From: Clostridiales bacterium
GTDB taxonomy: Bacteria; Bacillota; Clostridia; Christensenellales; Aristaeellaceae
Direction of reading: 5' to 3'
DNA: 41,493 nucleotides
Assembly: GCA_016930575.1 (NCBI GenBank)
Contig: JAFGGL010000057.1
Location: 1 to 41,493, forward strand
Shown piece after piece: positions 10,760 through 41,493 of the stretch. The stretch's first letter is position 1; the number at the start of each line of letters is the position of its first letter. The notes under the pieces are model-generated. The model ran no database searches. It saw nothing but the letters and a program-made list of their open reading frames with translations, and was not told the origin of the DNA. The position numbers were made by a program, and so were the translations under genes.

Positions 10760-10815
10760 GGGATATGCGAGTAACTGCCGCGGATGCCGCCGGCGCAGGC
10801 GGGAAAGGGATCGGT

Positions 10816-13418: not shown

Positions 13419-13480
13419 AACATAGAAAATAGCAATACTTGCTGGAATGATCGCTTATATTGATTAGGTGAAATTACTTA

Positions 13481-14419: not shown

Positions 14420-14542
14420 GTTCCATAGAGTATTGGAACCATAACAAACGAGGTGGCGGGTTGCATATATGTAAATTTGGCTAGTGCAAATTTTTCGCTA
14501 AACATTTGGTAGTATCACTAAACTGTATAGAGGTTGTGCAAA

Positions 14543-15685: not shown

Positions 15686-15709
15686 TTTACACTGTTTGGA
15701 GGACTCAAG

Positions 15710-17167: not shown

Positions 17168-17168
17168 C

Positions 17169-19097: not shown

Positions 19098-19101
19098 TAA
19101 A

Positions 19102-19160
19102 ATTGCTGATTATGAGAGGCTTTTGGTGCATACAAGTCCAAAACTTATAAGCCTAGCAAT
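19102..19160 (+). promoter_or_regulatory. Interrupted hairpin upstream of rmlA
   Basis: ATTGCT (19102-19107), AGGCTT (19117-19122) and TTGG (19123-19126) pair in order with CCAA (19138-19141), AAGCCT (19149-19154) and AGCAAT (19155-19160), leaving an asymmetric bulge. There is no T tract after it, so it is not a classical terminator. It ends about 18 bases before the start of rmlA and could be a leader structure or RNA-processing site; function is inferred. Confidence 0.4.
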
Positions 19161-19178
19161 GTTGAAAGGGGATTCCAT

Positions 19179-20063: not shown

Positions 20064-20087
20064 GGAAGCTGTGAGGAGGACTAACAA

Positions 20088-20645: not shown

Positions 20646-20693
20646 ACGGCGCTTATCGGTAAAGCGCGACCAACAGTAAGGAAGATACGAGAC

Positions 20694-21713: not shown

Positions 21714-21750
21714 AAAATCAACACACCGCAATATGATGGAGGATTAACTG

Positions 21751-22899
21751 ATGGCTATTCAACTGTTTGTTCCGACGTTTGATGTCGACGCCTGCCTTTC
21801 CGAGATTCGCGAATGCCTGGATAAAGGCTGGACGGGTATGGGCTTTAAAACCGTCGAGATTGAAAAGGCGTGGTGCCAATACACCGGATTTCCGTATTCG
21901 TGCTATATAAACTCCAACACCGCCGGTTTGAATATGGCGGTTGAGATTCTGAAGATGCAAAACGGCTGGGTAGACGACGATGAAATCATTACAACCCCGC
22001 TTACGTTTGTTTCAACGAACCATGCGATACTTCTTGGGGAAATGAGGGCGGTTTTTGCGGACGTGGACGATACTCTCTGTTTAGATCCTGAGGAAATCGA
22101 GAAGAAGATCACAGACCGGACCCGTGCGGTGATGTACGTGGGTTTCGGCGGCAATACAGGCCGCTATGAAGACGTTGTCGCGCTGTGTAAAAAGCATAAC
22201 TTGAGATTGATTCTGGACGCGGCGCATATGGCCGGCACGCGGCTCAATGGCGTGATACCGGGCAGGGAAGCCGACGCGGTGATCTACTCCTTCCAGGCGG
22301 TGAAAAACCTGCCAACCGGCGACAGCGGCATGATTTGCTTTATGGACGAGGAATACGCCAGGATCGTGCGAAAACTGGCATGGCTTGGCATCAATAAGGA
22401 TACCTACACCAGAACCGTCAGCGAAGGCGGCATGTATAAATGGAAGTACGATGTGGAGTACGTCGGTTATAAGTACAACGGCAACGCCTTGATGGCGGCC
22501 GTTGCCCTGGCGCAACTGCCGCATCTGGATAGCGACAACGCCTACCGTCGTCAACTGTCGCAGTTGTACACAGAGGGGTTAATAACCTGCGGTGACAAAG
22601 TCAAACTGATATCGGTGCCGGAAGGGTGTGAATCGGCGCAGCATTTGTTCCAGATTATGGTGGAAGACAGGGACGGCCTGATGGCCTACCTCAACTCACA
22701 CGAGATCTATCCCGGCGTGCATTATGTGGATAACATTGAATACAGCATGTACCGTTATGCCGAGGGCACCTGTCCCAACGCTCGTTATGCCAGCGACCAT
22801 ATTATTTCCCTACCGCTTCACATGCGGCTGACCCGCGAGGATGTGCAAACGGTCGTTGATACAATTCTCTCATTCGTCAATTACAGGATGAAGATATGA
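21751..22899 (+). CDS. DegT/DnrJ/EryC1 family sugar aminotransferase
   Basis: A 382-residue PLP-dependent aminotransferase of the nucleotide-sugar type. The PLP-Asp is in LILDAAHMAGT, and the Schiff-base Lys is in SFQAVKNLPTGDSGMICF, where Asp replaces the common Glu of the GEGG segment. Family members transfer an amino group from glutamate to C3 or C4 of a keto-sugar nucleotide. The position after rmlA-rmlC-rmlB and directly before an acetyltransferase (ATGA overlap) points to a 4-amino-4,6-dideoxyhexose made from a dTDP-4-keto sugar, analogous to WecE/VioA/PerA-type reactions. Regiochemistry is inferred. Confidence 0.9.
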   Translation: MAIQLFVPTFDVDACLSEIRECLDKGWTGMGFKTVEIEKAWCQYTGFPYSCYINSNTAGLNMAVEILKMQNGWVDDDEIITTPLTFVSTNHAILLGEMRAVFADVDDTLCLDPEEIEKKITDRTRAVMYVGFGGNTGRYEDVVALCKKHNLRLILDAAHMAGTRLNGVIPGREADAVIYSFQAVKNLPTGDSGMICFMDEEYARIVRKLAWLGINKDTYTRTVSEGGMYKWKYDVEYVGYKYNGNALMAAVALAQLPHLDSDNAYRRQLSQLYTEGLITCGDKVKLISVPEGCESAQHLFQIMVEDRDGLMAYLNSHEIYPGVHYVDNIEYSMYRYAEGTCPNARYASDHIISLPLHMRLTREDVQTVVDTILSFVNYRMKI

Positions 22900-23420
22900 G
22901 TACGCTGCATATTCGTCCCATCACTATCGAGGATACGGACAATATCGTTAAATGGCGCAACTCCCGGGACGTTCGTGAAAATCTTTTTACACAGACGGAG
23001 CTTACCGCTGAGCAGCACCTGCAGTGGCTACAACATTATGTTTATCCAGGGCTATGTCGACAGTTCATCGTTGAAGTCGAAGATGATGGCATCAAAACTC
23101 CGATTGGTACAACATTCATAAAAAACATAGATGTCGAAAAAAAAACGGGTGAGTTTGGCATATTCATTGGTGAATCTGCTGCGAAAGGTCGTGGTTATGG
23201 CTCTCAAGCTACACGTCATATTCTCACCTATGCTTTTGATGAATTGAAACTTCGACAGGTAAGCTTGTCGGTATTTTCTGACAACGAGGGCGCTGTTTAT
23301 ATCTATCGAAAACTTGGGTTTCGTACGGAAGAAGTACAACATATGAAGTTTCCCGGCATGAGAAGAAGCAGGACAGTTTTGTTTATGACGCTTGCCAGAG
23401 AACAATGGAAGAAGAGTTGA
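22896..23420 (+). CDS. GNAT N-acetyltransferase, probably acting on an amino sugar
   Basis: A 174-residue RimJ/PseH-like GNAT protein. IRPITIEDTDNIVKWRNSRDVRENLF is the typical N-terminal helix pair of the group; acetyl-CoA binding is marked by IGESAAKGRGYGSQATRHIL; the C-terminal RKLGFRTEE follows. It overlaps the aminotransferase by four bases, implying coupled translation, so it most likely N-acetylates the amino sugar made by that enzyme. An alternative is a general ribosomal-protein-type acetyltransferase, made less likely by context. The 3' half is AT-richer than its neighbours. Confidence 0.85.
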   Translation: MSTLHIRPITIEDTDNIVKWRNSRDVRENLFTQTELTAEQHLQWLQHYVYPGLCRQFIVEVEDDGIKTPIGTTFIKNIDVEKKTGEFGIFIGESAAKGRGYGSQATRHILTYAFDELKLRQVSLSVFSDNEGAVYIYRKLGFRTEEVQHMKFPGMRRSRTVLFMTLAREQWKKS

Positions 23421-23448
23421 AAGAGTATAGTAAGCCAACAAGAGGTGA

Positions 23449-24456
23449 ATGGTGATCAATACGTATTTAGTCACCGGCGCAGCCGGATTCATCGGATATC
23501 ATCTTGCCAAAAGACTGCTGGATGAAGGCTACGCGGTGGTTGGGTTTGACAATCTGAACGATTACTACGATGTGACGCTTAAAGAATGGCGTGTCCGGCA
23601 GCTTCAAAGCCAATCGGATGCGTTTACTTTCATCAAAGGCGATATTGCGGATGAGCAGACAGTGGGAACCATATTCGCAGAATATCAGCCTGATGCCGTG
23701 GCGCATCTGGCGGCGCAGGCTGGCGTGCGGTATTCCATCCAAAACCCCCGCACGTATATCGATTCTAACATCATCGGTTTTTTCAATATTCTGGAATCCT
23801 GCCGGCATCATCCCTTGAAGCACTTGGTGTACGCCTCGTCGTCTTCTGTGTACGGAAACCAGGAAAAGACGCCGTTTTCCGTGTCGGACAACGTAGACCA
23901 CCCCGTCAGCCTGTACGCTGCGACCAAGAAATCCAACGAACTGATGGCGTACACTTATGCGCACCTTTACGGCATTCCCTGCACGGGCCTGCGGTTCTTT
24001 ACCGTATATGGGCCGGCGGGCCGCCCGGATATGGCGTACTTCGGTTTTACGCGGAAGATATTAAACGGCGAGACCATCCAAGTGTTCAACCACGGCGACC
24101 TCTACCGTGATTTCACCTATATCGACGATGTTATCGACTGCGTATGCAGGGTGCTGTCTTCGCCTCCGCAGGGAGAGGATCCGGCGAAGATATATAATAT
24201 CGGCAATAATAAACCCGTAAACCTATTACACTTCATTGAGGTGCTGGAGCATGCGCTGTCCGGCGTTTATAACCGCGAGATCTGCGCTAGAAAGGAATTT
24301 CTGCCCATGCAGGCGGGAGACGTCTACCAGACCTATGCCGATGTGGATGACCTGGTTCGTGATTTCGCATTCAAACCGTCCACACCCATTGAGACAGGAC
24401 TTGAAGAATTCGCTAAATGGTATCATGCGTTTTATATGGACAGAACTGAGCGCTGA
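23449..24456 (+). CDS. NAD-dependent epimerase, UDP-glucuronate 4-epimerase-like
   Basis: A 335-residue extended SDR. TGAAGFIGYHLAKRLL binds NAD; HLAAQAGVRYSIQNP, YASSSSVYGNQEKTPFS, YAATKKSNELMA (Tyr-x3-Lys) and TVYGPAGRPDMAYFGFTRKI are hallmarks of UDP-glucuronate 4-epimerases of capsule loci (Cap1J/WcaG type). It would supply UDP-galacturonate from UDP-glucuronate; no UDP-glucose dehydrogenase is in the window, so the precursor must come from elsewhere. The ATG at 23449 follows AAGAGGTG closely; GTG at 23452 is an alternative. It is the last plus-strand gene of the main operon. Confidence 0.9.
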   Translation: MVINTYLVTGAAGFIGYHLAKRLLDEGYAVVGFDNLNDYYDVTLKEWRVRQLQSQSDAFTFIKGDIADEQTVGTIFAEYQPDAVAHLAAQAGVRYSIQNPRTYIDSNIIGFFNILESCRHHPLKHLVYASSSSVYGNQEKTPFSVSDNVDHPVSLYAATKKSNELMAYTYAHLYGIPCTGLRFFTVYGPAGRPDMAYFGFTRKILNGETIQVFNHGDLYRDFTYIDDVIDCVCRVLSSPPQGEDPAKIYNIGNNKPVNLLHFIEVLEHALSGVYNREICARKEFLPMQAGDVYQTYADVDDLVRDFAFKPSTPIETGLEEFAKWYHAFYMDRTER

Positions 24457-24678
24457 ATGGTTAATCATATGCAATTTTACCGTTTCGGTTGAACTGTGAG
24501 TTTTGCGGAAACCAACCACCAGAAGAGAAAGAAACCATTACGAGATATATTCAAAACAACTGCAATTGTTTTAGGGATATCTGTAATTTTTGAATTTTCG
24601 GCATCTCAATGATCTTCTTTTTCCTGCTGAGTGTTCAGGATGATAAAGAGAAGGTTTCCAGCCTGCTGGTTGTCGTAC
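24457..24678. other. Gene-free spacer with two short overlapping frames
   Basis: This 222-bp spacer separates convergent genes. It holds no clear terminator. Two short plus-strand frames overlap by ATGA: GTG 24496 to 24612 (38 residues, one hydrophobic stretch) and ATG 24609 to 24709 (hydrophobic start MIFFFLLSV). They could be remains of a decayed membrane-protein gene, but nothing recognisable supports this. Confidence 0.3.
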
Positions 24679-25959
24679 TTAAGCCTTCATGCGGTTATGT
24701 TCTGCCTTAAGTATATAGGCGATGCTTGCGCACATGACGAGCGAAAGCTCATTGGAATAGAAGACCGTGTTAATGGAAAACAAAACAATAAACATCAGCC
24801 ATTGTAGCCACAGGTGCGGCTGTACGTCCCGGCGGAGTTGAAAAACACCCTTGGCCGCTTTATGGCCGATGACCCAGACGCCTCCGATAAAGCCAATGAG
24901 CCCGGCCAGACCAACGCCTGCCAGCAGATCCAGGAGTTCGCTGTGTTCGCCGATGATCTTGCCCGTGTTAAATGCGGAACCGACGAGAGGCGAGGCGAGA
25001 AAGCTGTCCGCAGATAATTTGTAGAAGTAGGCCCTCGACGGAGAGGCGATGACGCCGTTCATCGCGTCCAGTATGGAATTCATGCTTATGGAAACGCTTA
25101 CCAAGTCGTGTTCGGTCGCTATCTGCGCCGCCCATGTGACCAGGGACAGTCTGAACAAATACGTAAGGATGAAGAGAGGCAAAATCAATACAAACGATAC
25201 GGGGACCGACATTTTTCTAAAGATCCTGCGTAAAAGCGCGGACAGCAACTCTATGATCGTAATGACGGTGGCAAGGATGATTGCGTAGGAGTAGAAGGAT
25301 ATAACGATTACTATAAGGAGCAAAACATAGAAGGCAAGCATTCCGGCCCGTTTCCATCTGTTGCTGTTGATGATCCTGTATGCAACGACCGGAAGAAGCA
25401 ATACGGACATATATACAAACCCGAATCCGCCGATATTTTGCTGCATGATCGAATCCTTCAAGGCTTGTATTGTTCGATCCCCATTGCCCAGCACTCTCGA
25501 ATACAAACTGAATTGACCGGATTCCATGTAGTAAAACAAAAGCCAGAATATCGTGGTAAGGGCGGTGATCAGGACCACGATGAAAAATGCCGGGAATATC
25601 CACCTGTACAGCTTGGGATTGTTTTGTTCACCGGCATAGGCAAACCACAGCAGCGGGAACCAAAACATGACCTGCTGAACGTAAAAACCGGCCTTCGCAC
25701 TGCCGCCGCGATCCAGAAAGACCGCAAGAATCAACGGGAGTAGCGCGACCATCAAGATACGGGATATGAAAGAATGTGATTTTTCCTGCAATGTGTTTCC
25801 GTCGATGACGACGCCTATGCCGAATACCATTACCGCCAACGCACCGGTAACGGCGCGGCATGTCGTCTGTACGGCCGGCAGCAGCAGCCACACCATATAC
25901 AGAAGCATCGAAACATTGACGATTTCAGCAGAGATGCGCTTGTGCATAAATTTCATCAT
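24679..25959 (-). CDS. O-antigen ligase/Wzy-like membrane protein
   Basis: A 426-residue integral membrane protein with about ten to twelve hydrophobic segments and one long external loop (about residues 255-350). The GEHSELLDLLAGVGLAGLIGFIGGV segment after the loop matches the Wzy_C pattern of O-antigen ligases and polymerases. A longer frame exists up to 26268, but the extra N-terminal residues are unlike a membrane protein; the ATG at 25959 has GGGAGAG upstream and opens directly into MHKRISAEIVNVSMLLYMVWLLLP. It is transcribed against the main operon, so it may be a second polymerase or a ligase attaching polymer to the cell surface. Confidence 0.82.
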   Translation of the reverse strand: MMKFMHKRISAEIVNVSMLLYMVWLLLPAVQTTCRAVTGALAVMVFGIGVVIDGNTLQEKSHSFISRILMVALLPLILAVFLDRGGSAKAGFYVQQVMFWFPLLWFAYAGEQNNPKLYRWIFPAFFIVVLITALTTIFWLLFYYMESGQFSLYSRVLGNGDRTIQALKDSIMQQNIGGFGFVYMSVLLLPVVAYRIINSNRWKRAGMLAFYVLLLIVIVISFYSYAIILATVITIIELLSALLRRIFRKMSVPVSFVLILPLFILTYLFRLSLVTWAAQIATEHDLVSVSISMNSILDAMNGVIASPSRAYFYKLSADSFLASPLVGSAFNTGKIIGEHSELLDLLAGVGLAGLIGFIGGVWVIGHKAAKGVFQLRRDVQPHLWLQWLMFIVLFSINTVFYSNELSLVMCASIAYILKAEHNRMKA

Positions 25960-26034
25960 TATCGGCTCTCCCCATATCAATCCGTGCGTGATTATCAATA
26001 GCATTCGACATCCGCTCTTTCGCATCCTGCCATG

Positions 26035-26063
26035 TTGATTACACGTTGCGTATGGTATATACT
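26035..26063 (+). promoter_or_regulatory. Predicted promoter of the chain-length gene
   Basis: TTGATT (26035-26040) and TATACT (26058-26063) are 17 bp apart in the divergent region between the ligase-like and Wzz-like genes. The leader to the ATG at 26206 is about 140 bases. I found no convincing minus-strand promoter here. Confidence 0.5.
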
Positions 26064-26205
26064 TAGATAAAGAATGAATAACCCGGATTCGGAAGATTAT
26101 GCGTATTGGCAATTCCTGCGGATTTGTGATATGTTTTTTATGTACTGAAGGCAAATTTCTCATACGCATGGGATGAACGCAACATGGGAAGAGGGGAATA
26201 TTGAC

Positions 26206-27654
26206 ATGAATGAGAACAGCGAAGTCAATTCCTGGGAAGAACCATATCGGGAGATCACCCTTCGTCAATTGGCCTTCTATGTTCTCAAGAGGTGGAGGCT
26301 TCTGCTCCTTGCCGCGCTGCTTTGCGCCGTCGGCGCACTTTTGATTTCTTCAGTTTTTCTTGCCTTGGAAATGACGGATGAAGAGTACGAGGACGTCGTT
26401 GAAAAAGAATACAATGATAGCGTGGCCGACTATACCGACAGGATACAGACACTGGAAAGAAAGATCGTGGATTTGGAGGACGATTTGGTCTGGCAACAGG
26501 CATACAACCAGGATTCTACGCTGATGAAGGTCGACCCGTATCACAAAAAGGTTTCCACAATGACTTACTACGTCGATGCGGACGAGCCGGTCGTACCGGA
26601 TTACCTGGAGCAGTATGTTAGCCGCAACGACAGTTTGCTTAAAACCTATATGTTGTATTTGAGCGGGGGAGATTTGTATTCGCAGCTTCTGGAACGCTTC
26701 CCCGATATCAAGGACGTCAACTGCCTCCGGGAAATCTTCTCGGTTGTGATGTATGAAACTACGGGGATGATCACCATCACAGTCATCGGCAACGATGACG
26801 AAACCGCACAGACGATATTCGGCATCGTCAGGACCGGGATGGCGGAGATTTACAAAGAGGCGTCCAAAACGATCGGCGAGCACGAACTCACAGAGATTGA
26901 CAGCAACACCTATATGTGTCAGGATCGGTTCTTGGCTGATAAGCAGCAGCAGAGTTTGGAGACGATCTTTACGCTGAATACCCAGTTGAGAGTAACGAAG
27001 ATCGAACTGGACGATTTGAACGAAGAATTCAAGGAACTGGTGCATGTGCCTTTATGGCGCAGGATCGTTATGCAATTTCTACGGACCGCGGTTTATACCG
27101 CGTTCGGCGGATTGATCGCCATGGCACTTCTGCTGGCGATATATTATGCTTTATCGGACAGGATACTTGACGCCGATAAACTGCGGTATGCCGCCAAGCT
27201 TGATATACTGGGCGCGATTCCACGCGGGAAACATAAACGGAAACGGCGGCTTTTGGACAGGGCGGCGGCAGCAGTGGGCGGCGTTACGCTGAAAACGGCG
27301 GAGCGTGAAGATGCGCTGGCGCTGACCGCGCGGAGCATTTTCGCATTCGTGTCGGCCAAAGGGATTACGGAGGGGAACATTGCGCTTGCGGGCAGCATCG
27401 CGGCGGCGGAACTTATGGAGATCGCCGACGTATTCAACGACGCCGTTGCGGACGCGAAACTTAAGTTTTCGGCGGCCGGCAATCCCATGCGCAACGCTTC
27501 CGCCGTGGATGGTATAACGGCGTCAGGCATCGCGGTCATCGTGGAGAAGCAGGAGCAATCATCCTGTACGGACGTCGTGAAAGCGGTCGACCGCATCACC
27601 GCCTGGGGTAAGCCGGTGCTTGGCGCCGTGCTGCTTGATGCCGACGCGATGTAG
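26206..27654 (+). CDS. Wzz-type chain-length protein with degenerate BY-kinase-like tail
   Basis: A 482-residue protein. The first membrane helix (RWRLLLLAALLCAVGALLIS) starts near residue 30; a long acidic, coiled-coil-rich extracytoplasmic region follows; the second helix (YTAFGGLIAMALLLAIYYAL) lies near residues 295-320, as in Wzz/CapA polysaccharide co-polymerases. A cytoplasmic tail of about 160 residues follows. It starts with LDILGAIPRG, then runs like a bacterial tyrosine kinase domain (ARSIFAFVSAKG, IALAGSIAAAELMEIADVF, GIAVIVEKQ, KPVLGAVLLDAD) but lacks the GKST Walker A and a Tyr-rich C-terminus. The start at 26206 has GAGGGG upstream; 26173 is an alternative. It should control polymer length together with the Wzy proteins. 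Confidence 0.82.
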   Translation: MNENSEVNSWEEPYREITLRQLAFYVLKRWRLLLLAALLCAVGALLISSVFLALEMTDEEYEDVVEKEYNDSVADYTDRIQTLERKIVDLEDDLVWQQAYNQDSTLMKVDPYHKKVSTMTYYVDADEPVVPDYLEQYVSRNDSLLKTYMLYLSGGDLYSQLLERFPDIKDVNCLREIFSVVMYETTGMITITVIGNDDETAQTIFGIVRTGMAEIYKEASKTIGEHELTEIDSNTYMCQDRFLADKQQQSLETIFTLNTQLRVTKIELDDLNEEFKELVHVPLWRRIVMQFLRTAVYTAFGGLIAMALLLAIYYALSDRILDADKLRYAAKLDILGAIPRGKHKRKRRLLDRAAAAVGGVTLKTAEREDALALTARSIFAFVSAKGITEGNIALAGSIAAAELMEIADVFNDAVADAKLKFSAAGNPMRNASAVDGITASGIAVIVEKQEQSSCTDVVKAVDRITAWGKPVLGAVLLDADAM

Positions 27655-31476: not shown

Positions 31477-31511
31477 GGAAAATGCCGGGGAGTTTGCTCC
31501 CGGCGTTTTCC
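31477..31511. terminator. Bidirectional terminator between trxA and the Crp/Fnr gene
   Basis: AAAATGCCGGG and CCCGGCGTTTT form a near-perfect stem with A/T runs on both sides, in the 41-bp gap between convergent stop codons, so it can serve both genes. Confidence 0.85.
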
Positions 31512-32182
31512 TATATGAGCTTCCTGAGTTTTAGTTTATCCAGAATTTCCACGCCGCCGCGGTGCACCGCCACCATGCCTTCCTCGGCGAAGTATTTGAG
31601 CATCCGGCTCACCACTTCCCGCGCGCTACCTACGTAGCGCGCGATCTGCTCGTGGGTCATGGTGATGTTGTCTATACCGGTTTTTGCTGTCTCGTCAAGC
31701 AGGAAAATGGCCAGCCGGCGGTCGAAACTCATAAAGAGGATCTGCTCCATCGCCCACATCACCTCGGAGAAACGCTCGGTGGTGACGCGCAGGGCGAAAT
31801 TTTCCGCGTAGACGTTGCGCTCCATCACCCGGGAAAACGCGCGGGTGTCGATCAGGCACACTTCGGTCGGGCGTACGGCGTCGATGAACAGGTCGAATGT
31901 GATGCTGCTTATAAGGCACGAGGCCGACAGCACGCACACCGCGTCGCCGCCCAGGCGGAACAGCGTGACCTCCTTCCCCTCATCCGAGAGGATATAGGCG
32001 CGCAGTTCCCCGGATTTCACCAGCAGGATACCGACGCAGTCGTCGATGCTGGAGTGCACGTTCTCGCCGGATGCAAAGGTGGCGGTCTTCAGGTGCTTCG
32101 TAAGCAGGGCAGCCTCTTCCCCGGTCAGCTTATTCCAGAACGGGAGCATGGATTTTACGAACGCCAGTTTATCAGTTTGCAT
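31511..32182 (-). CDS. Crp/Fnr family transcriptional regulator
   Basis: A 223-residue protein: an N-terminal cyclic-nucleotide-type beta barrel (about residues 25-115), a long dimer helix, and a C-terminal winged helix with MTHEQIARYVGSAREVVSRML as recognition region (near residues 173-193). There is no N-terminal Cys cluster for an Fnr-type iron-sulfur centre. Cysteines occur at positions 49, 83 and 89, the last two in AVCVLSASC. Genes of this type often sit beside CoA-disulfide reductase genes in Clostridia (recollection, not checked), so redox or sulfur-species sensing is suggested. The ATG has GAGGTG upstream. It is divergent from the reductase. Confidence 0.9.
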   Translation of the reverse strand: MQTDKLAFVKSMLPFWNKLTGEEAALLTKHLKTATFASGENVHSSIDDCVGILLVKSGELRAYILSDEGKEVTLFRLGGDAVCVLSASCLISSITFDLFIDAVRPTEVCLIDTRAFSRVMERNVYAENFALRVTTERFSEVMWAMEQILFMSFDRRLAIFLLDETAKTGIDNITMTHEQIARYVGSAREVVSRMLKYFAEEGMVAVHRGGVEILDKLKLRKLI

Positions 32183-32322: not shown

Positions 32323-34026
32323 ATGAAAAGCCGGAAAGTACTCATCATCGGCGGCGTCGCGGGCGGCGCGTCCGCGGCGGCCAGGCTGCGGAGGCTCGAC
32401 GAACACGCGGAGATCATCCTGTTCGAGCGGGGAGAGTATATCTCCTTTGCCAACTGCGGCCTGCCTTACTATATCGGCGGCGAGATCACCGACAAGTCCG
32501 AGCTGACGTTGCAGACGCCCCGCAGCTTCCATGCGCGCTTCAACGTAGACGTGCGTATCCAGAGCGAAGTGACCGCGATACACAGGGACACGAAAACCGT
32601 GACCGTGCAAAATATAAAGACCGGCGAGAGTTACGAGGAAAACTACGACAAGCTCATCCTCTCCATGGGCGCCGAACCCGTGGTGCCGCCGATCGACGGG
32701 ATACGAAACGACAGGGTGTTCACGCTGCGCAACATCCCCGACACCTACAAGATCAAGGGCTTTATCGAGGAGAACCATCCCATGACCGCCGTGGTGGTCG
32801 GCGGCGGGTACATCGGCGTGGAAATGGCCGAAAACCTTAACAGCGCGGGGCTTGACGTGACGATTGTGGAGATGCTCGACCAGGTCATCGCGCCGCTGGA
32901 CTACGACATGGCGGCCGACGTGCACCGCCATATCATCGAAAAGGGCGTCACCCTCATGCTGAAAACCACCGTGAAGGCCGTGAAGCAGCAGGGCAACCGC
33001 CTGCAGGTGGCGCTGGACAAGGGCGAGATTCCAGCGGATATGGTCATCCTCGCCATCGGCGTGCGGCCTGAGAGTAGGATCGCTAAAGACGCGGGATTGA
33101 CGGTCAACACGCGCGGCGCGATTGTGGTCACCGACGACATGCGCACCACCGACGAGGATATTTTCGCCGTCGGCGACGTTGTGCAGGTGACGGATTTCAT
33201 CACCAGGGAGCCCGCGCTCATCCCGCTGGCGGGGCCCGCCAACAAGCAGGGGCGCATCGCCGCGGATAACGTCTGCGGCGGGGACAGCCGCTACACGGGT
33301 ACGCAGGGGTCGGCGATTCTGAAGGTGTTCGACATGACGGTCGCCACCACCGGCGTCAACGAGAAGACCGCCAAGCGGCTTGGCCTCAACTACGACAAAG
33401 CGTTTACCTATTCTGCGAGCCACGCAAGCTATTACCCCGGCGCGCAGAGCATGGCGATCAAGACGGTCTATGAAAAGGTGACCGGCAAGATCCTGGGCGC
33501 GCAGCTTGTGGGGTACGAAGGCGTGGACAAGCGCTGCGACGTGTTGGCGGCGGCCATCCGCTTCGGCGCGACGGCGGAAGACCTGACAAAACTGGAACTG
33601 GCGTACGCGCCGCCCTATTCATCGGCGAAAGACCCGGTGAACATGGCAGGATATGTAATCCAGAACCTATTAACCGGCAAGATGAAGAACTTCCATTGGC
33701 ACGACGTGGACGCCCTGCCCCGCGACGGCAGCGTGACGCTGCTGGACACCCGCACGCGGGGCGAGTACCTCAACGGGCATATCGAAGGCTTCGTCAACAT
33801 CCCGCTGGACAGCCTGCGCGATCACCTGGACGAGCTGGATAAGTCCAAGCCCGTGTACGTTACCTGCCAGGTGGGGCTGCGCGCCTATATCGGCGCACGT
33901 ATCCTTTCGCAAAACGGCTTTGATACATACAACCTGGCCGGGGGTTACCGCCTGTACGCAAGCATTTACGGCATCGCGCCCATCCACGTTATGCGGATCA
34001 ACCCCGAAACGCAGCGGCCGGAATAA
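32323..34026 (+). CDS. CoA-disulfide reductase fused to a rhodanese domain
   Basis: A 567-residue flavoprotein. Residues 1-~445 are a pyridine-nucleotide disulfide oxidoreductase: FAD loop IIGGVAGGASAAARLRR, the single active Cys45 in SFANCGLPYY, the NAD(P)H loop VVVGGGYIGVEMAENL, and the second FAD motif DIFAVGDVV. Residues ~465-567 are a rhodanese domain with active Cys515 in VTCQVGLR. CoADR-Rhd enzymes reduce CoA disulfide or CoA persulfide/polysulfide with NAD(P)H in the cytoplasm; the rhodanese domain handles sulfane sulfur. AAGGAG precedes the ATG. It is divergent from the Crp/Fnr gene, its probable regulator. Confidence 0.93.
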   Translation: MKSRKVLIIGGVAGGASAAARLRRLDEHAEIILFERGEYISFANCGLPYYIGGEITDKSELTLQTPRSFHARFNVDVRIQSEVTAIHRDTKTVTVQNIKTGESYEENYDKLILSMGAEPVVPPIDGIRNDRVFTLRNIPDTYKIKGFIEENHPMTAVVVGGGYIGVEMAENLNSAGLDVTIVEMLDQVIAPLDYDMAADVHRHIIEKGVTLMLKTTVKAVKQQGNRLQVALDKGEIPADMVILAIGVRPESRIAKDAGLTVNTRGAIVVTDDMRTTDEDIFAVGDVVQVTDFITREPALIPLAGPANKQGRIAADNVCGGDSRYTGTQGSAILKVFDMTVATTGVNEKTAKRLGLNYDKAFTYSASHASYYPGAQSMAIKTVYEKVTGKILGAQLVGYEGVDKRCDVLAAAIRFGATAEDLTKLELAYAPPYSSAKDPVNMAGYVIQNLLTGKMKNFHWHDVDALPRDGSVTLLDTRTRGEYLNGHIEGFVNIPLDSLRDHLDELDKSKPVYVTCQVGLRAYIGARILSQNGFDTYNLAGGYRLYASIYGIAPIHVMRINPETQRPE

Positions 34027-35445: not shown

Positions 35446-36135
35446 ATGTTCGATTCCGAAATCCACGTCTGGGGTGATTCGATCGCCGTGGGCATCACCT
35501 ACAGCGAAGCGCGCAAGCGTTATGTGATCTCCAGGGAGCGCTGTCCTAAGCGGATCTCCGAAGGGTTGAATTTAAAGGTGGTCAATAATTCCAAAATGGG
35601 TGCCACGGTTCTGGACGGCCTGGAGCGTTTTGAGGCGTCCGAGCCGGTGGAAGGCGCGCTGTGCGTGTTGGAATACGGCGGCAACGACTGCAATATGGAC
35701 TGGGCGAAGGTCGCCGAGAATCCCGACGCGCCGCCGCAGCCCAGGGTGGAGCTTTCGGTCTTTACCAAAAAGCTTGAGGAGTTTATCGGAAAGATCAAGG
35801 AGAAGGGCATGAAGCCTATGCTCATCACGCCGCTGCCGCTGCACGCGGAGAAATTTTTCAACTGGATTTCCCAGGGATTGGACGGCGACGCCATTTTGAA
35901 GGCGGTCGGCGAGGTGCAAAACATCTACGGCTGGCAGGAGCGCTACGCCATCGCCGTGCGCAACGTGGCCGCGAAAACGAAAACCCCGCTTCTGGATTTG
36001 CGGGATACCATGCTTTCCAACAAGGACTACCCCTCTCTGATCTGCTGTGACGGCATGCACCTGATGGACGAGGGATACCGCTTTATCGGCGATACGCTGC
36101 TGCGAAGGATAAAATCGATACCGGGCTGCGCATAG
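35446..36135 (+). CDS. SGNH/GDSL-family hydrolase
   Basis: A 229-residue cytoplasmic-looking esterase-type protein. Block I is VWGDSIAVG with the nucleophile Ser near residue 12; the GGND motif (YGGNDCNMDW) is block III; the catalytic Asp-His pair is in CDGMHLMDEG. Family members hydrolyse acyl esters of lipids, sugars or thioesters; the substrate is not predictable. There is no signal peptide. It has its own promoter and terminator, so it forms a single-gene unit. Confidence 0.9.
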   Translation: MFDSEIHVWGDSIAVGITYSEARKRYVISRERCPKRISEGLNLKVVNNSKMGATVLDGLERFEASEPVEGALCVLEYGGNDCNMDWAKVAENPDAPPQPRVELSVFTKKLEEFIGKIKEKGMKPMLITPLPLHAEKFFNWISQGLDGDAILKAVGEVQNIYGWQERYAIAVRNVAAKTKTPLLDLRDTMLSNKDYPSLICCDGMHLMDEGYRFIGDTLLRRIKSIPGCA

Positions 36136-36307: not shown

Positions 36308-36604
36308 GTGTTGAACATCAAAGACGCAAAGGAAAGGCTCAGGCAGATCACAAAAAAGGCGGAGTTGCTCAAGGTGATCTCGCATCCCGTCAGGCTGTGT
36401 ATCATCAGGGGGTTGCTCAACGACCCCGGATGCAACGTGAGCAAGATCATGGGCTGCCTGGATATGCCGCAGTCCACCGTGTCCCAGCACCTCGCCAAGC
36501 TCAAAAGCGCGGGAATCGTGCAGGGCGTGCGCAACGGCCTGGAGGTCAACTACTACGTCATCAACGAGGACGCGAAGAAAATCGTGGATTGCATCATCGA
36601 ATAA
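36308..36604 (+). CDS. ArsR-family transcriptional regulator
   Basis: A 98-residue winged-helix protein of normal ArsR size. ISHPVRLCIIRGLL is the usual opening helix; CNVSKIMGCLDMPQSTVSQHLAKLKSAGIVQGVRNGLEVNYYVIN covers the recognition helix and wing. Cysteines in LCIIRG, GCNVS and GCLDM could ligand a metal or respond to redox or persulfide, but no canonical CxC metal motif is present. GTG at 36308 or TTG at 36311 may be the start; spacing to AGAGG is short for both. It is first in the antiporter operon, 29 bp before the mrpE-like gene, and probably controls it. Confidence 0.88.
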   Translation: MLNIKDAKERLRQITKKAELLKVISHPVRLCIIRGLLNDPGCNVSKIMGCLDMPQSTVSQHLAKLKSAGIVQGVRNGLEVNYYVINEDAKKIVDCIIE

Positions 36605-36633: not shown

Positions 36634-37122
36634 ATGATGAAAAAATGGATTTCCGCGTTTATTGTCCTGTGGCTCGCGTGGGTGCTGATCGCGGGGTTTG
36701 CGCCCTACGAGCTGTTGCTGGGCGGCGTCGTGGCGCTGATTCTGTCGCTGCTCATCTCCCGCTATGTCGGCTATTCGTTCGGGGTAAGCGCCGTTATCGG
36801 GCTGTTTAGGTTCATCTTCGTCTACATACCGGTGTTCCTTTACAGGCTGGTGCTGGCGAACTTCGATATGGCCTACCGGGTACTGAGCCCGAAGCTGCCC
36901 ATCAGCCCCAGGATCGTCAAAGTCCCTACGGGCTTGCAAAGCGATTTTAAAAAACTCGTGCTGGCGAATACAATCACGCTCACGCCGGGTACGCTGTCGC
37001 TTGACGTGGAGGACGACGGGGTGCTGGTGCATTGGGTGAACGCGCAGGGGGAGAGCGGCGAAGAATACAAAAAAGCCATTTCGCTGGACTTCGAAAGTCT
37101 GTTGGGAGGGAAGGCCGAATGA
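36634..37122 (+). CDS. mrpE: Na+/H+ antiporter subunit E (MrpE/MbhA-like)
   Basis: A 162-residue membrane protein with two to three N-terminal hydrophobic helices (WISAFIVLWLAWVLIAGF, LLLGGVVALILSLLIS, VIGLFRFIFVYIPVFLYRLV) and the conserved TITLTPGTLSLDVEDD segment of MnhE. It is a small structural subunit of the multisubunit antiporter. AGAAGGAAGA precedes two adjacent ATG codons (36634, 36637). It is the first membrane gene of the operon and overlaps mrpF by four bases. Confidence 0.92.
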   Translation: MMKKWISAFIVLWLAWVLIAGFAPYELLLGGVVALILSLLISRYVGYSFGVSAVIGLFRFIFVYIPVFLYRLVLANFDMAYRVLSPKLPISPRIVKVPTGLQSDFKKLVLANTITLTPGTLSLDVEDDGVLVHWVNAQGESGEEYKKAISLDFESLLGGKAE

Positions 37123-37373
37123 CAGCCAATATCGCAGTTTTCGCCCTTGTCGGCGTCGGCGCGCTCTTCGCGCTGATCCGGCTGCTTCTCGGGCCCACGC
37201 CGTTTGACCGCGTGGTGGGGCTGGATACGCTCAACATCATCGTCACCGCGCTGATCGCGTTTCTGGCGTTCGTCTTCAAAAACTCCCTGTACCTGGACAT
37301 TGCGCTGGCCTACGGCATCCTCTCCTTTGTGGAGACCGTAGTATTCGCGAGATTCCTGGAGGGCAGAAAATGA
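37119..37373 (+). CDS. mrpF: Na+/H+ antiporter subunit F (MrpF/MbhB-like)
   Basis: An 84-residue protein with three membrane helices. GPTPFDRVVGLDTLNIIVTAL is the family signature in the first loop, and DIALAYGILSFVETVVFARFLEG closes it. The ATG at 37119 overlaps the mrpE stop (ATGA) and has GGGAGGG upstream; longer in-frame extensions run inside mrpE and are rejected. Confidence 0.92.
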   Translation: MTANIAVFALVGVGALFALIRLLLGPTPFDRVVGLDTLNIIVTALIAFLAFVFKNSLYLDIALAYGILSFVETVVFARFLEGRK

Positions 37374-37675
37374 GTATTTTAGGATATATCTTCATGATTT
37401 TCGGCGCGGCGTTCCTGGCGCTGGGCGGTTTCGGGGTGTTCCGTATGCCCGACGTATTCAACCGTATCCAGGCGGGTACGAAAGCCACGACGCTTGGCGC
37501 GTTCTCGCTGATTCTGGGCGTCGGGCTGGCCAACCCGGACTGGCTGATCAAAGCCATACTCATCATCGTGTTCATCGCGATCACCAACCCCGTGGGCAGC
37601 TCCGTGCTGGCCCGCGCGGCGTACAAGAAAAACGTGAAGCAATACGTCAAGGAAGACGGAAAGGCGGGTGAGTAG
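37370..37675 (+). CDS. mrpG: Na+/H+ antiporter subunit G (MrpG/MbhC-like)
   Basis: A 101-residue protein with three membrane helices. The core GGFGVFRMPDVFNRIQAGTK and the third helix IIVFIAITNPVGSSVLARAAY are diagnostic of MnhG/MrpG. It overlaps mrpF by four bases (ATGA). Confidence 0.93.
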   Translation: MSILGYIFMIFGAAFLALGGFGVFRMPDVFNRIQAGTKATTLGAFSLILGVGLANPDWLIKAILIIVFIAITNPVGSSVLARAAYKKNVKQYVKEDGKAGE

Positions 37676-37676
37676 C

Positions 37677-37931
37677 ATGAGTTTGATGGATATCCTGGAG
37701 CTCGTGCTGGGGATTGCCATGGTCGTGCTGGGCGTGGTCGCGGTCAACGCGAAAAAGAAGATCACATCCGTCATCCTGCTGTCGGCGTTGAGCATGCTGG
37801 CGGTCGTCGCGTTCGTGATCATGCGAGCGCCGGACGTCGCAATCACTGAGGCTGTGATCGGCTCCGGGCTTGTGACCGGCCTGTTCGTGTTCACGCTCTT
37901 TACGAAAAAGAACGAAGGTGAGGACGCATGA
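37677..37931 (+). CDS. MbhD/DUF4040-type antiporter subunit
   Basis: An 84-residue protein with three membrane helices and the conserved APDVAITEAVIGSGL segment. It corresponds to the DUF4040/MbhD domain, which in ordinary Mrp systems is part of the C-terminal region of MrpA. As a separate small protein it is typical of Mbh/Mbx-type operons. The ATG at 37677 is preferred over the GTG at 37668; GGGTGAG lies upstream. It overlaps the next gene by four bases. Confidence 0.88.
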   Translation: MSLMDILELVLGIAMVVLGVVAVNAKKKITSVILLSALSMLAVVAFVIMRAPDVAITEAVIGSGLVTGLFVFTLFTKKNEGEDA

Positions 37932-38701
37932 AACAAGCCGTATCCATCGTATTGGTACTGTTGCTCGGCGCGTTCATCTTCACGGCGCTGTATTTCGCCG
38001 ATTCTTCGCCTTTGCAGTTCAAACCCTACGGGGACGCGGATCTGAGCGGGCGCGTGTCGCAGGGCTATGTGGATAAGAACGTGACGGCAGACGCCGCATC
38101 GGAAGAACCCGCCGCCGTGGTATACGGCGAGACGAAGAACGCGGAAACGGGATCTGCCAACATCGTGACCTCCGTGGTCGTCAACTACCGCTCGTTTGAC
38201 ACGCTGGGCGAGGTGACGGTGCTGTTCGTCGCGGCGCTGGGCGTGGGGCTGCTGCTCTCGGGCAAGCGCAGGCGGCAGGAAGCTGCGTTCCAGCCGAGCT
38301 TCATCCTCAAGCACGGCGTGCGCATCGTACTGGGTATTATGGTGATCTTCGGGGTCTACCTCTTTACGCACGGACACCTCACACCCGGCGGCGGTTTCTC
38401 CGGGGGCAGCATCATCGCCGCCGCCGTGCTGCTTCTATACGTATCGGACAATGCGTTTAAGGCGAAGGTCAAGGCCTTCAAGATCGCCGAAGGCGTGGCC
38501 GGCTCGCTGTACGTGGTCGCGGGACTTCTGGGGCTTGCGCTGGGCGGCTACTTCCTTTACAACTTCCTGCCTACGGGCGTGGTCGGAGACTTGTTAAGCG
38601 CCGGAATCGTGCCCATCGTCTATATCCTGATCGGGCTGAAGGTCGGCAGCGAGATCTCCGGCGTGATCGCGGGCTTTGCCACAGAGGAGGAAGCGCTATG
38701 A
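37928..38701 (+). CDS. Fused MbhE-MrpB antiporter subunit
   Basis: A 257-residue protein. The N-terminal ~100 residues are like MbhE (end of MrpA): one signal-anchor helix, an extracytoplasmic polar loop, then TSVVVNYRSFDTLGEVTVLFVAALGV. From about residue 118 an MnhB/MrpB domain follows: FILKHGVRIVLGIMVIFGVYLFTHGHLTPGGGFSGGSIIAAAV, then two more helices ending YILIGLKVGSE. In Mrp complexes these parts are adjacent subunits, so the fusion is structurally reasonable. It overlaps mrpC by four bases. Confidence 0.9.
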   Translation: MKQAVSIVLVLLLGAFIFTALYFADSSPLQFKPYGDADLSGRVSQGYVDKNVTADAASEEPAAVVYGETKNAETGSANIVTSVVVNYRSFDTLGEVTVLFVAALGVGLLLSGKRRRQEAAFQPSFILKHGVRIVLGIMVIFGVYLFTHGHLTPGGGFSGGSIIAAAVLLLYVSDNAFKAKVKAFKIAEGVAGSLYVVAGLLGLALGGYFLYNFLPTGVVGDLLSAGIVPIVYILIGLKVGSEISGVIAGFATEEEAL

Positions 38702-39033
38702 TACAGTATTTTGCCATCGCGCTGATGCTGGTGGGCGTCTACGGGCTGCTGACGCAGAAAAACGTCATCAAGCTCATCGTTTCGCTCAACATCTTCGAGG
38801 TCGGCCTCAACGTGTTCATCATTTCGGTGGGGTACGTATCAGGCGGCATCGCGCCGATCCTGACCTCGCAGAACAATACCTCCGCGCTGCTGTACGTGGA
38901 TCCGCTTCCCCAGGCGCTGGTGCTGACGTCCATCGTTATCGGCGTGGGCGTAACCGCGCTGGCGCTGGCGTTCGCGCGCAGGCTGCATAACCAATACGGG
39001 ACCTACAATCTGGACGAAATGGAGGGCGAATAA
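38698..39033 (+). CDS. mrpC: Na+/H+ antiporter subunit C (MrpC/NuoK-like)
   Basis: A 111-residue NuoK-type protein with three membrane helices. LIVSLNIFEVGLNVFIISVGY carries the conserved membrane Glu (IFEVG), and DPLPQALVLTSIVIGVGVTALALAFARRL is the family signature. It overlaps the preceding gene by four bases and ends one base before the next. Confidence 0.94.
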   Translation: MIQYFAIALMLVGVYGLLTQKNVIKLIVSLNIFEVGLNVFIISVGYVSGGIAPILTSQNNTSALLYVDPLPQALVLTSIVIGVGVTALALAFARRLHNQYGTYNLDEMEGE

Positions 39034-39034
39034 G

Positions 39035-40489
39035 ATGTTGATGGATATTCTCAGCAATCCCGTCCTCCTGATCGCCGTCCCGCTGCTGTTTGCGTTCCTC
39101 GCCGTCTTCCTCAAGAAAATCGACAAGGTTTTGCTCGGTGCGGCCGCCGTGCTCAACATCGCAGGCGCGGCGTTGATCGCGGTGCTTTACGAAGGAACCA
39201 AAATCATCGAACTGGGCGGCTTCAAGCCTCCCTTCGGCATCAGCCTGGTGCTGGACGACTACTCGCTGATCGGAATTGTATTGCTCAATGTGATTTTCGG
39301 ATTGATTCTGCTGCTGTCCGGCAAGCATGTGCAAAAATACGCGATGGTGCTGCTGGTCGCGCTTGCGGCGCTTAACGGCGTCATCCTGACGGGCGACCTG
39401 TTCAACCTGTTCGTCTTCCTGGAGATCGCAGCCATCGCCGCCTACATCTTTACGGCCATGGACAAGGGCTTCAAGCATTCCTTCAATTACCTCGTGGTCG
39501 GCACGCTGGGTTCGGGGCTGTTCCTGTTCGGCATCATCCTGCTGTACAACGTCTTCGGGTCGCTTAACATGTTCGACATTCAGGAGAAACTGTCGCAAGC
39601 CAATCCGGCCGACAGCGGCGCGCTGGCGCTGCCGCTGGTGATGATGTTCACCGGCCTTTCGGTGGAAGCGAAGCTCATGCCGTTCGGCGGCTGGGTGAAG
39701 GGCGTGCTGAAAAAGGCGAACACGCTGGTCGGCGCGCTGATCGTTTCGGCCTATGCGCTGGCGGTGCTGCTGGCGCTCGGGCGTGTGATAAGCACGGTGT
39801 TCTTCATGAGCGGCGCGGTGCGGATCGCCTTCACGGCGGTCGCCGCGGGCACGCTGGTCTTCGCGGAAGCTTCGGCGTTCTCCAGGAAGAACCTGCGCGA
39901 GGTGCTGCTGTTTTCGTCCGTGGCGCAGTCGGGCCTTGTGGCGCTGCTGTTCCTCTACGGGCTGACGGTGCCCGCCGTGCTGGTGCTCGCGGGCAACGTC
40001 GTGAGCAAACTGGTGCTGTTCACCGTCGCGGGCAAGTTCGCGCATGATCTTGGGACCGATGACATCGGCGATCTCAAGGGCGTGTTCATCAAATTCCCGC
40101 TCGTCGGCGTCGGGTTTACGGCGTCGGCGATGTCGCTGATCGGCCTGCCGCTGTTCTTCGGCTTTGTCGCCAAGATCAACGCGCTGGTCGGGCTGTTTGA
40201 TGCGGGCAACGTATGGCTGCCGATCATCATCCTCGTGATGGCGGTGGTGGAAGGCGCGTACTTCGTGCGTATCCTGACCACGCTTTGGAACACCGGGGAC
40301 GAAGGCGAACTTTCGTCCAAGGACAAGCTGAAAACGTTCAAGCTCAACGGCAGTGCGGTCGTCGGCGCCGTATCGGTCGCCGTCGCCGTGGTTATCGTCG
40401 CGCTGGGCGTCCTGCCCATCCTCAATATCAAACAATTCTTTTCTGTTGACTTCATGACGTTTATCGGTCAGCTGTTGGGGGGTATGTAA
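39035..40489 (+). CDS. MrpD/MbhH-like proton-translocating subunit
   Basis: A 484-residue NuoL/M/N-type antiporter with about 14 membrane helices. GDLFNLFVFLEIAAIAAYI carries the key Glu of helix 5, and EAKLMPFGGWVKGVLKKAN (near residues 211-230) carries the helix-7 Lys. The usual PFHxWLP after this Lys is replaced by PFGGWVKG, a form I associate with Mbx-type subunits. GGAGGG precedes the ATG at 39035. It should translocate protons or sodium in the membrane complex. The following gene is a second homologue. Confidence 0.9.
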   Translation: MLMDILSNPVLLIAVPLLFAFLAVFLKKIDKVLLGAAAVLNIAGAALIAVLYEGTKIIELGGFKPPFGISLVLDDYSLIGIVLLNVIFGLILLLSGKHVQKYAMVLLVALAALNGVILTGDLFNLFVFLEIAAIAAYIFTAMDKGFKHSFNYLVVGTLGSGLFLFGIILLYNVFGSLNMFDIQEKLSQANPADSGALALPLVMMFTGLSVEAKLMPFGGWVKGVLKKANTLVGALIVSAYALAVLLALGRVISTVFFMSGAVRIAFTAVAAGTLVFAEASAFSRKNLREVLLFSSVAQSGLVALLFLYGLTVPAVLVLAGNVVSKLVLFTVAGKFAHDLGTDDIGDLKGVFIKFPLVGVGFTASAMSLIGLPLFFGFVAKINALVGLFDAGNVWLPIIILVMAVVEGAYFVRILTTLWNTGDEGELSSKDKLKTFKLNGSAVVGAVSVAVAVVIVALGVLPILNIKQFFSVDFMTFIGQLLGGM

Positions 40490-41493
40490 ATGAGTTTTCA
40501 ACTGAGCGTAAGCCTGGTGATCGCCGGGCTGTTCGCGGCCTCCGTGCTCGCCTGGCTGCTGACGAAGGTAAACAAGGCGCTGGGCGCGTGGGTGACGGTC
40601 GTCGCCTCCTCCGCCGCGCTGGTGCTGATGGCGCTGCTGCACGCGCAAATCGGCAGCACCGTGAAGCTGTTCTTCCTGGAATTCACGCTGACGCAGTACG
40701 GCTGGTTTTTCTCGGTCATCATGCTGGCGGTGTTTGCGTGCGTGTCGTTTTTCAACATCTACTGGATGAAGAAGATCGTCCACCCCGCGGCGTATAACCT
40801 GCTCTACCTGCTGGCACTCATGGGCACCCTCGGCGCGTTTGCCGCCAAAGACTTTATCACGCTGTTCATCTTCTGGGAGACCATCGTGTGGTCGTCGACG
40901 TTCATCATCCCGCTTGGCAAATCGCGCAAGGCGTCGGTGACCTACTACGCGTTTTCCGCGTTCGGTTCGCTGGCTATGCTCTACGGCATATTGTTCCTCT
41001 ACGGCAGGTTCGGCTCGTTTGAGATCGCGGGCGTGCTTATTAAGGCCGCGAATGACCCGACGGCAGCCATCGTGGCGTTTATCACCATCGGGATCGCCGG
41101 GCTGATTAAACTGGGCGTGTTCCCGTTCCATATCTGGCTGCCGCAGGCGCACGGCAACGCGCCGGACACCTTCTCGCCCATCCTGTCGGGCGGGCTGGTG
41201 AAGGCGGGCGGCTTCGCGGCCTTCCTGGTCGTCGCGGTCATGCCGTCGTACAAAGCGTTTGCCAACAACGTCGAGTTCCTTGGCAAGCAGCTTGCCATGC
41301 CCGTGCCCAACTACGCGCTGGCGATCCTGGGCGCGGTCAGCATCGTGGCCGGCACTTTGATGGCCATCAGCCAGAACGATTTTAAAAAACTCATCGCGTA
41401 TTCGTCGGTGGCGAATGCCGGCTACATCGTCATCGGGCTCGCGATGGCGGGCGGGCTTAGCACCGGCGGCGCGCTGATGCACATCTTCGCCCA
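40490..41493 (+). CDS. Second MrpD/NuoL-like subunit (3' truncated by window)
   Basis: The frame opens with ATG directly after the stop of the previous gene and is open to the window end (334 codons). It is a second NuoL/M/N-type subunit: FIFWETIVWSSTFIIPLG carries the helix-5 Glu, IAGLIKLGVFPFHIWLPQAHGNAPDT carries the helix-7 Lys and the canonical PFHIWLP loop, then PILSGGLVKAGGF and a broken helix with NDFKKLIAYSSVANAGY. Unlike the previous subunit it keeps the standard loop. The remainder lies outside the window. Confidence 0.92.
   Translation, partial: MSFQLSVSLVIAGLFAASVLAWLLTKVNKALGAWVTVVASSAALVLMALLHAQIGSTVKLFFLEFTLTQYGWFFSVIMLAVFACVSFFNIYWMKKIVHPAAYNLLYLLALMGTLGAFAAKDFITLFIFWETIVWSSTFIIPLGKSRKASVTYYAFSAFGSLAMLYGILFLYGRFGSFEIAGVLIKAANDPTAAIVAFITIGIAGLIKLGVFPFHIWLPQAHGNAPDTFSPILSGGLVKAGGFAAFLVVAVMPSYKAFANNVEFLGKQLAMPVPNYALAILGAVSIVAGTLMAISQNDFKKLIAYSSVANAGYIVIGLAMAGGLSTGGALMHIFA

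Follow-up and report, generated by a model that had tools for sequence, protein, structure and literature searches.

An Mbx-type operon probably split between two contigs of a Clostridiales draft genome: a candidate ion pump with an NfnL-like domain fused to its NuoI subunit

What kind of enzyme is encoded by an antiporter operon that breaks off at the very end of its contig? The question is raised by contig JAFGGL010000057.1 of the Clostridiales bacterium assembly GCA_016930575.1 (contig C4 of the source genome), whose 41,493 bases were analysed as a whole and are called the window in this text. The source genome is a draft of 78 contigs, 95.2% complete and with 4.97% estimated contamination. 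Eight open reading frames (ORFs) spanning positions 36634-41493 follow one another in the order E-F-G-MbhD-MbhE/MrpB-C-D-D' (Table 1), and the last, a second MrpD-like gene, runs for 334 codons before the window ends. Because the window is the entire contig, nothing lies downstream on C4. In the reading that we propose, to which we give about an even chance as a whole, these eight genes are the membrane half of an Mbx operon with 13 genes, of the type of the membrane-bound sulfane sulfur reductase (MBS), split between C4 and a second contig, C44; its product would be an ion pump fed by NAD(P)H and/or ferredoxin, with sulfane sulfur as the likeliest acceptor.

The gene order with two MrpD homologues had been proposed in the initial annotation, and a Pfam search bore it out: all eight ORFs scored above the cut-off of the expected family (E values from 1.8e-9 to 3.6e-37), and eight consecutive matches of this kind leave no room for chance. 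The junctions had been described as overlapping or nearly so, and they are tight throughout. Overlaps of 4 bases occur at E/F, F/G, MbhD/EB and EB/C (EB being the MbhE/MrpB gene) and one of 8 bases at G/MbhD (with a GTG start), while C and D are 1 base apart and D and D' abut.

A search of the source genome for PF00346 (the NuoD family) returned a single gene, on contig C44. At the end of this contig lies the C-terminal part of a D' gene, open at the contig end, followed by genes for NuoH (321 aa), NuoB (187), NuoC (174), NuoD (368) and a NuoI-NfnL fusion (608), and then by a gene for a 311-aa protein. C4 ends two bases into a codon, and C44 starts at the next codon of the intact homologue in locus L027; compared with this homologue, one base is missing between the contigs and the frame is kept. 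The same operon genes are found on one contig in two named Clostridia metagenome-assembled genomes, L027 and L028. Across the 13 genes of the operon, identity to L027 is 53-84% for L028 and 59-83% for the genes of C4 and C44 together. It should be noted that D' of L028 (L028:4726-6578) is split over two frames, which may be a sequencing error or a broken gene. From the fit of the contig ends to the intact homologue we infer that C4 and C44 join, and the antiporter operon of C4 very probably goes on into the redox genes of C44. The continuation into NuoB/C/D/H/I-like genes that the initial annotation had expected is thus present in the source genome, and L027 and L028 each have it on one contig. 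The outcomes that it had named as contrary were not seen: given the join, the operon passes D', and no full MrpA gene follows.

It might be argued that C4 and C44 are not neighbours, or that one of them is a contaminant, and that the operon is a rearranged Mrp antiporter ending soon after D'. The fragmentation and estimated contamination of the draft would agree with this, as would the lack of a close D' in the 39 other relatives searched (five of the same genus), 14 of which have some D'-like match, the best at 35% (G002). Nevertheless, we regard this explanation as highly unlikely, considering the in-frame match of the contig ends and the similarity of both contigs to one intact operon. In addition, a DUF1836 gene lies at a distance of 1.3 kb from MrpE, and its identity is 61-67% in four of the five same-genus genomes (no match was found in the fifth, which is 66% complete) and at most 44% outside the genus. 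This kinship gradient indicates that C4 belongs to the source lineage and rules it out as a contaminant contig; for C44, the operon match alone bears on the point.

Judged by its sequence, the operon is Mbx, neither a membrane-bound hydrogenase (Mbh) nor a plain Mrp antiporter. The traits of an ordinary Mrp antiporter (a full-length MrpA, one MrpD and no redox arm) were not found, nor were those of Mbh (two CxxC NiFe motifs and one MrpD-like subunit). Four proteins were searched whole against the PDB, and MBS of Pyrococcus furiosus (6u8y) came first for all of them. NuoD scored 282 bits with MBS, 229 with complex I and 111 with MBH; NuoB scored 231 bits, against 127. The best match of D was MbsH (6u8y_H, 184 bits; next MrpD, 106), and that of the intact D' of L027 was MbsH' (6u8y_X, 248 bits against 149), the 615-aa protein aligning to residues 56-610, i.e. 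to MbsH' including its C-terminal extension. The initial annotation had suggested that the NiFe-binding CxxC pairs would tell Mbh from Mbx, and they speak for Mbx: both sites of NuoD read CxxE instead of CxxC in all 13 loci compared in this study (RIC-x-x-E and C-x-P-E). The motifs are RICVPE and CSPE in the source genome, and RICVPE and NCPPDIDR in MbsL; MBS is described as retaining two of the four NiFe cysteines (PMC7684303). The assignment to Mbx rather than Mbh is made because half of the NiFe ligands are missing from NuoD, in the manner of Mbx.

In a NuoD tree of 22 rows, the 13 bacterial rows group with P. furiosus MbsL (support 100/99; MbsL is the only MBS row, and the tool warns of long branches), while two complex I rows, a CxxC hydrogenase-like protein from G002 and five distant rows fall outside the group. 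A search of the source genome for PF00374 (hydrogenase) gave no match. A group 4 NiFe hydrogenase would share the modular plan and the E-F-G-MbhD order of this operon, and yet its probability is next to nil: it is ruled out by the loss of NiFe ligands at both sites, and the two MrpD-like subunits, the PF00374 result and the MBH scores, which are far below those of MBS, point in the same direction.

The 608-aa protein of C44 is composed of a NuoI part (residues 1 to ~125) and a domain for which NfnL is the top hit among solved structures. The match of residues 154-604 to NfnL (236 bits) is the best overall in the PDB; the best NuoI-type match is 6u8y_N (99 bits against 53), and the archaeal MbsN (208 aa in 6u8y) matches the first 121 residues only. 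The motifs of the fusion fit two NuoI [4Fe-4S] clusters, two further [4Fe-4S] clusters, and FAD and pyridine nucleotide sites. NCBIfam PRK13984 (NF010590), catalogued as a 'putative oxidoreductase', matches the full length of the protein (2-606) with 866.6 bits, below its cut-off of 946, and the fusion is therefore a homologue, not a strict member, of this family. Among 14 control genomes, at E <= 1e-100, Thermotoga maritima alone has a PRK13984 match, and this is over the cut-off; its gene is presumably located in the mbx cluster of that species. A structure model of the fusion (mean predicted local distance difference test, pLDDT, of 38.8) was not used.

The lysine of the motif IRWLKR, present in all 13 fusion proteins, lines up with K170 in 9bov_A and E126 in NfnL (positions counted on the alignments, the number E126 being itself a reading of the alignment), and the match to the StnC chain 8oh5_C begins at the same place as that to 9bov_A. 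In Nfn, the glutamate is a ligand of the FAD-proximal cluster, and K170 of StnC seems to ligate the cluster adjoining a non-bifurcating FAD (PMC10482914). The glutamate of bifurcating Nfn is thus found in none of the fusion proteins. Since lysine takes its place as in StnC, no bifurcation is predicted, and the fused flavin would be a plain two-electron/one-electron switch. The arginine equivalent to NfnB R201 is kept (Y-R-L, 13/13), which is not decisive by itself. In NfnL, GGGNTAMD is followed by an arginine pair; 12 of the 13 loci have LE at this place and, because the pair is missing, NADH may be preferred over NADPH.

The most likely interpretation of these features is an ion pump having both ferredoxin-type clusters and an NAD(P)H module, the ferredoxin link being plausible from the two NuoI [4Fe-4S] motifs. 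The product would belong to the complex I superfamily, as a membrane-bound pump derived from Mrp. Electrons would be exchanged with NAD(P)H, perhaps NADH, at the fused FAD domain and/or with ferredoxin at the NuoI clusters, and would run on to the NuoB cluster at the chamber between NuoB, NuoD and NuoH, where an acceptor would be reduced; the reduction would power the pumping of H+ by D and D' and, in the Mrp part, the exchange of Na+ for H+. The likeliest acceptor is perhaps sulfane sulfur (polysulfide or persulfide). It is suggested by the homology to MBS, by a neighbouring gene for a CoA-disulfide reductase-like protein with a rhodanese domain, and by co-induction in T. maritima, in which mbxA and nsr are reported to rise with sulfur (PMC9431562). 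Further reasons are that a MenA-type prenyltransferase and a PF00374 match were not found in the source genome, and that an RnfD/NqrB-family subunit is already present in it.

The presence of a nicotinamide site also admits an ion-pumping ferredoxin:NAD(P)+ oxidoreductase, an alternative to Rnf, in which ferredoxin would be oxidised at the NuoI clusters and NAD(P)+ reduced at the FAD domain. The fused NfnL-like domain would supply the NAD(P) site that archaeal MbsN lacks; bacterial Mbx is so described in PMC3608648 and PMC4596419, where the full mbx (clade 3) and Rnf (clades 1 and 2) of Thermoanaerobacter are assigned to separate clades. However, the RnfD/NqrB-family subunit of the source genome may make such a role redundant, and T. 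maritima is reported to carry both Mbx and Rnf (PMC9431562). Moreover, a flow from NuoI to NfnL would bypass the NuoB/NuoD/NuoH chamber, which couples redox to pumping in the relatives, and these three subunits are nevertheless kept wherever the contig reaches. We consider this explanation possible, at clearly less than an even chance.

A number of points weigh against a sulfane sulfur-reducing pump fed by NAD(P)H and/or ferredoxin. The junction of C4 and C44 is not read across, in a draft with the estimated contamination given above, and activity, substrate and ion of the complex are predictions. Electron transfer from NADH to sulfur yields little energy, if NADH is the sole donor. The preference for NADH rests on one motif, and nine of the 12 LE loci have one arginine two residues later, while the remaining locus, G757, reads ARKP. 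In the stretches examined, none of the other 12 operons has a CoA-disulfide reductase gene nearby; this gene was therefore discarded as a conserved partner, and the link to sulfur in the neighbourhood is that of the source genome alone, which lowers our confidence. The finding that speaks most against a plain sulfur reductase of the MBS kind in the window's own clade comes from NuoB, whose motif is CTGCG, as in MbsJ, in 8 of 11 loci, and CTGCC in the other three (source genome, L027 and L028). The proximal cluster of MBS is described as having three cysteine ligands and an open iron, the proposed site of polysulfide reduction (PMC7684303); by analogy, the extra cysteine could close this cluster. 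Finally, the loop histidine of complex I (GPQHPxxHG, corresponding to Nqo4 H38 in the structural-hit alignment) is kept in 12 of the 13 NuoD proteins, and MbsL is without it.

The last two features, the vicinal cysteines of NuoB and the loop histidine of NuoD, would suit a quinone reductase of the complex I kind whose NADH module is unusual. Against this, the position of Nqo4 Y87 is a valine in the alignment of the source-genome NuoD, and NuoD stands with MbsL in the tree. In addition, the one UbiA-family protein found in the source genome is a decaprenyl-phosphate phosphoribosyltransferase, and no MenA-type step was found in this nearly complete genome (quinone uptake and other routes were not searched). 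A quinone acceptor was judged very unlikely on the UbiA-family result, and sulfane sulfur is retained as the preferred acceptor.

As for distribution, a profile of three fusion proteins, at a threshold of E <= 1e-100, matched 4 of 398 genomes of the phylum and 8 of 391 of the class, the source genome being counted in both. The 13 loci compared comprise those of all ten matching non-source genomes, the source genome, L027 and L028; the occurrence of the fusion in all 13 is partly built in, because ten were selected through it. All 13 subunit genes are present in the same order in 10 loci, and the other three are cut earlier by contig ends (within the ten, the source locus lies on two contigs, and the last gene of G252 is cut by a contig end). 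Plasmids searched with D' gave 291 records, all below 60% identity. Nine of the 11 loci of one search (L029-L037, from Desulfobacterales and others) are distant homologues that represent a different kind: five of them (L030, L032, L035, L036 and L037) have a NuoD-like match of 22-25% identity, in no case with CxxC, and none of the nine has a match to NuoI-NfnL. The scattered presence of the operon fits horizontal transfer or repeated loss; horizontal transfer of mbx has been reported (PMC4596419).

Other multi-antiporter clusters were encountered in the same lineage. Locus L026 of the same-genus genome G002 (contig C124) combines several antiporter genes with a NiFe hydrogenase-like part in which both CxxC motifs occur (ICGIC and DPCFSC); Mbx was not found in this genome, which is 60% complete. 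The source genome itself carries on contig C41 (L025:6451-17682, minus strand) an 11-gene operon that has the order E-F-G-MbhD-MbhE/MrpB-C and five consecutive antiporter-type subunits, of 497 and 484 aa (assigned by homology) and of 511, 678 and 678 aa (by Pfam), with no NuoB or NuoD match within the 19.5 kb read. A complex built of antiporter subunits alone, with five that are pump-like, would be unusual. In 11 of 23 relatives from the genus and family, one contig has four D'-like matches.

Table 1. Genes of the operon and its surroundings. Positions refer to the window (contig C4) unless a locus is named; L024 lies on contig C44 of the source genome (G000).
Feature	Coordinates	Strand	Match or remark
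Crp-type regulator	31511-32182		divergent from CoA-disulfide reductase-like gene
CoA-disulfide reductase-like protein, C-terminal rhodanese domain	32323-34026		best-matching models below cut-offs
GDSL gene	35446-36135		flanks operon
ArsR/SmtB-family regulator	36308..36604	+	Pfam HTH_5 and NCBIfam HTH_metalloreg over cut-offs
MrpE / MbxA (MbsA)	36634..37122	+	PF01899 (MNHE), E 3.6e-37; ATG at 36634 or 36637
MrpF / MbxB	37119..37373	+	PF04066 (MrpF), E 1.4e-18
MrpG / MbxC	37370..37675	+	PF03334 (PhaG_MnhG), E 4.8e-25
MbhD-like subunit / MbxD	37668..37931	+	PF13244, E 8.8e-16
MbhE + MrpB in single protein	37928..38701	+	PF20501 + PF04039 (MbhE + MnhB)
MrpC / MbxG	38698..39033	+	PF00420 (Oxidored_q2), E 1.7e-22
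MrpD / MbxH	39035..40489	+	Proton_antipo_M
MbxH' (second MrpD-like, D'), first 334 codons	40490..41491	+	Proton_antipo_M; remainder on G000:C44
D' remainder	L024:16072-16914 (G000:C44)	-	C-terminal part, open at contig end
NuoH-NuoB-NuoC-NuoD-NuoI/NfnL	L024:16120 down to 11141 (C44)	-	following D' C-terminus
Gene after fusion subunit	L024:10129-11064; L027:16868-17785; L028:11510-12430	- (L024)	in 10/13 loci

Among the neighbouring genes (Table 1), that of the ArsR-family regulator lies upstream of the operon in the same orientation also in L027, L028, G227, G252 and G757, and is divergent in G290; it was not detected beside the operon in G651, G589 and G522. In the source genome, L027 and L028, the protein has three cysteines at matching places (VRLC/IRLC, PGC or PSC, and GCLD or SCLD), only some of which are retained in the other loci. 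From these sequences it is possibly a redox or persulfide sensor. The CoA-disulfide reductase/rhodanese gene, 2.3 kb before the ArsR gene, possibly encodes an enzyme of the same class as the NSR of sulfur reducers. A GDSL gene is reported to flank mbx in Caldanaerobacter too (PMC4596419); the stretches read for nine other Mbx loci showed none, and the GDSL-DUF1836 pair is present in the same-genus genomes G003, G004 and G005 without Mbx beside it, and the GDSL gene was treated as a coincidence rather than as a conserved neighbour.

The gene after the fusion subunit was not found in G290 and G757, and the contig of G252 ends before it. Its copies are 21-35% identical to that of L027, and those scanned had no match in Pfam or NCBIfam. 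A weak structure model of the 305-residue L027 protein (mean pLDDT 57.4) gave Foldseek matches which, among those shown, are nearly all methyltransferases (best E 6.6e-3, none at E <= 0.001), a weak hint that the protein may have the fold of an S-adenosylmethionine-dependent methyltransferase. Beyond the operon, C44 carries genes for a hybrid-cluster (prismane) protein, a cupin, a 239-aa ferredoxin-like protein and a Crp-type regulator (L024:5667-9320), and the window shows by eye, at about 9000-27000, a run of surface polysaccharide-like genes (sugar nucleotide synthesis, flippase, transferases).

The existence of Mbx in bacteria is already in print, for T. maritima, Thermoanaerobacter and Caldanaerobacter subterraneus subsp. 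yonseiensis (PMC9431562, PMC3608648 and PMC4596419). What is new here is this member of the group, the argument for an NAD(P)H module and the recurrent methyltransferase-like neighbour gene. In the open literature searched, a scope that leaves out key subscription papers, no discussion of the NAD(P)H module of the fused subunit was found. Bacterial Mbx has been named after its archaeal relative, at first as a ferredoxin:NADP oxidoreductase and later as a probable sulfur reductase. A FAD/NAD(P) domain on NuoI would explain directly how nicotinamides may be used by the bacterial enzyme and not by archaeal MBS, and it suggests that the complex I superfamily gained NAD(P)H input on more than one occasion. 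MBS is regarded as a link between hydrogenase and complex I (PMC7684303). We tentatively propose, at somewhat less than an even chance, that bacterial Mbx is an NAD(P)H-linked, Na+/H+-pumping enzyme, possibly with a methyltransferase-like partner, which would have acquired its nicotinamide module independently of complex I, through an NfnL/GltD FAD domain on NuoI and not through NuoEFG; this would be a second solution to NAD(P)H wiring in the superfamily, and the NuoB/NuoD site of the window's clade would be intermediate between MBS and complex I.

Several known systems can be compared with this operon. In MBS, formerly Mbx, the gene letters run A-B-C-D-E-G-H-H'-M-J-K-L-N, and the present operon follows this order. 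Its 13 subunits correspond one-to-one to the genes described here (6u8y; PMC7684303), down to the MbhE/MrpB fusion (helices 1-2 and 3-6 of MbsE are described as playing the MbhE and MrpB roles in the same source), the two MrpD-like subunits and the one cysteine left per NiFe pair of NuoD. Unlike MBS, the present operon has an NfnL/GltD-like domain of ~450 residues at the C-terminus of NuoI, in addition to the GPQHPxxHG loop of most NuoD proteins and the CTGCC of some NuoB proteins. For the published bacterial Mbx, a 13-gene mbx cluster and an MbxL lacking the two CxxC motifs are described (the latter in PMC4596419); the likeness is drawn from such descriptions and from the T. maritima PRK13984 match, and function is unproven there too. 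The fused domain resembles NfnL/NfnB and the GltD domain of StnC in its two N-terminal [4Fe-4S] motifs and its FAD and NAD(P) Rossmann motifs, and differs from NfnL in being fused to the NuoI of an ion pump, in having lysine for the Nfn glutamate (as StnC) and in missing the arginine pair of the NADP site. With respiratory complex I, the operon shares homologous NuoH, NuoB, NuoC, NuoD and NuoI and antiporter-like subunits; no NuoE, NuoF or NuoG gene was seen in the operons read, and what sets the enzyme apart from complex I is a nucleotide module of another family, an Mrp Na+ module and a NuoD of the Mbx type.

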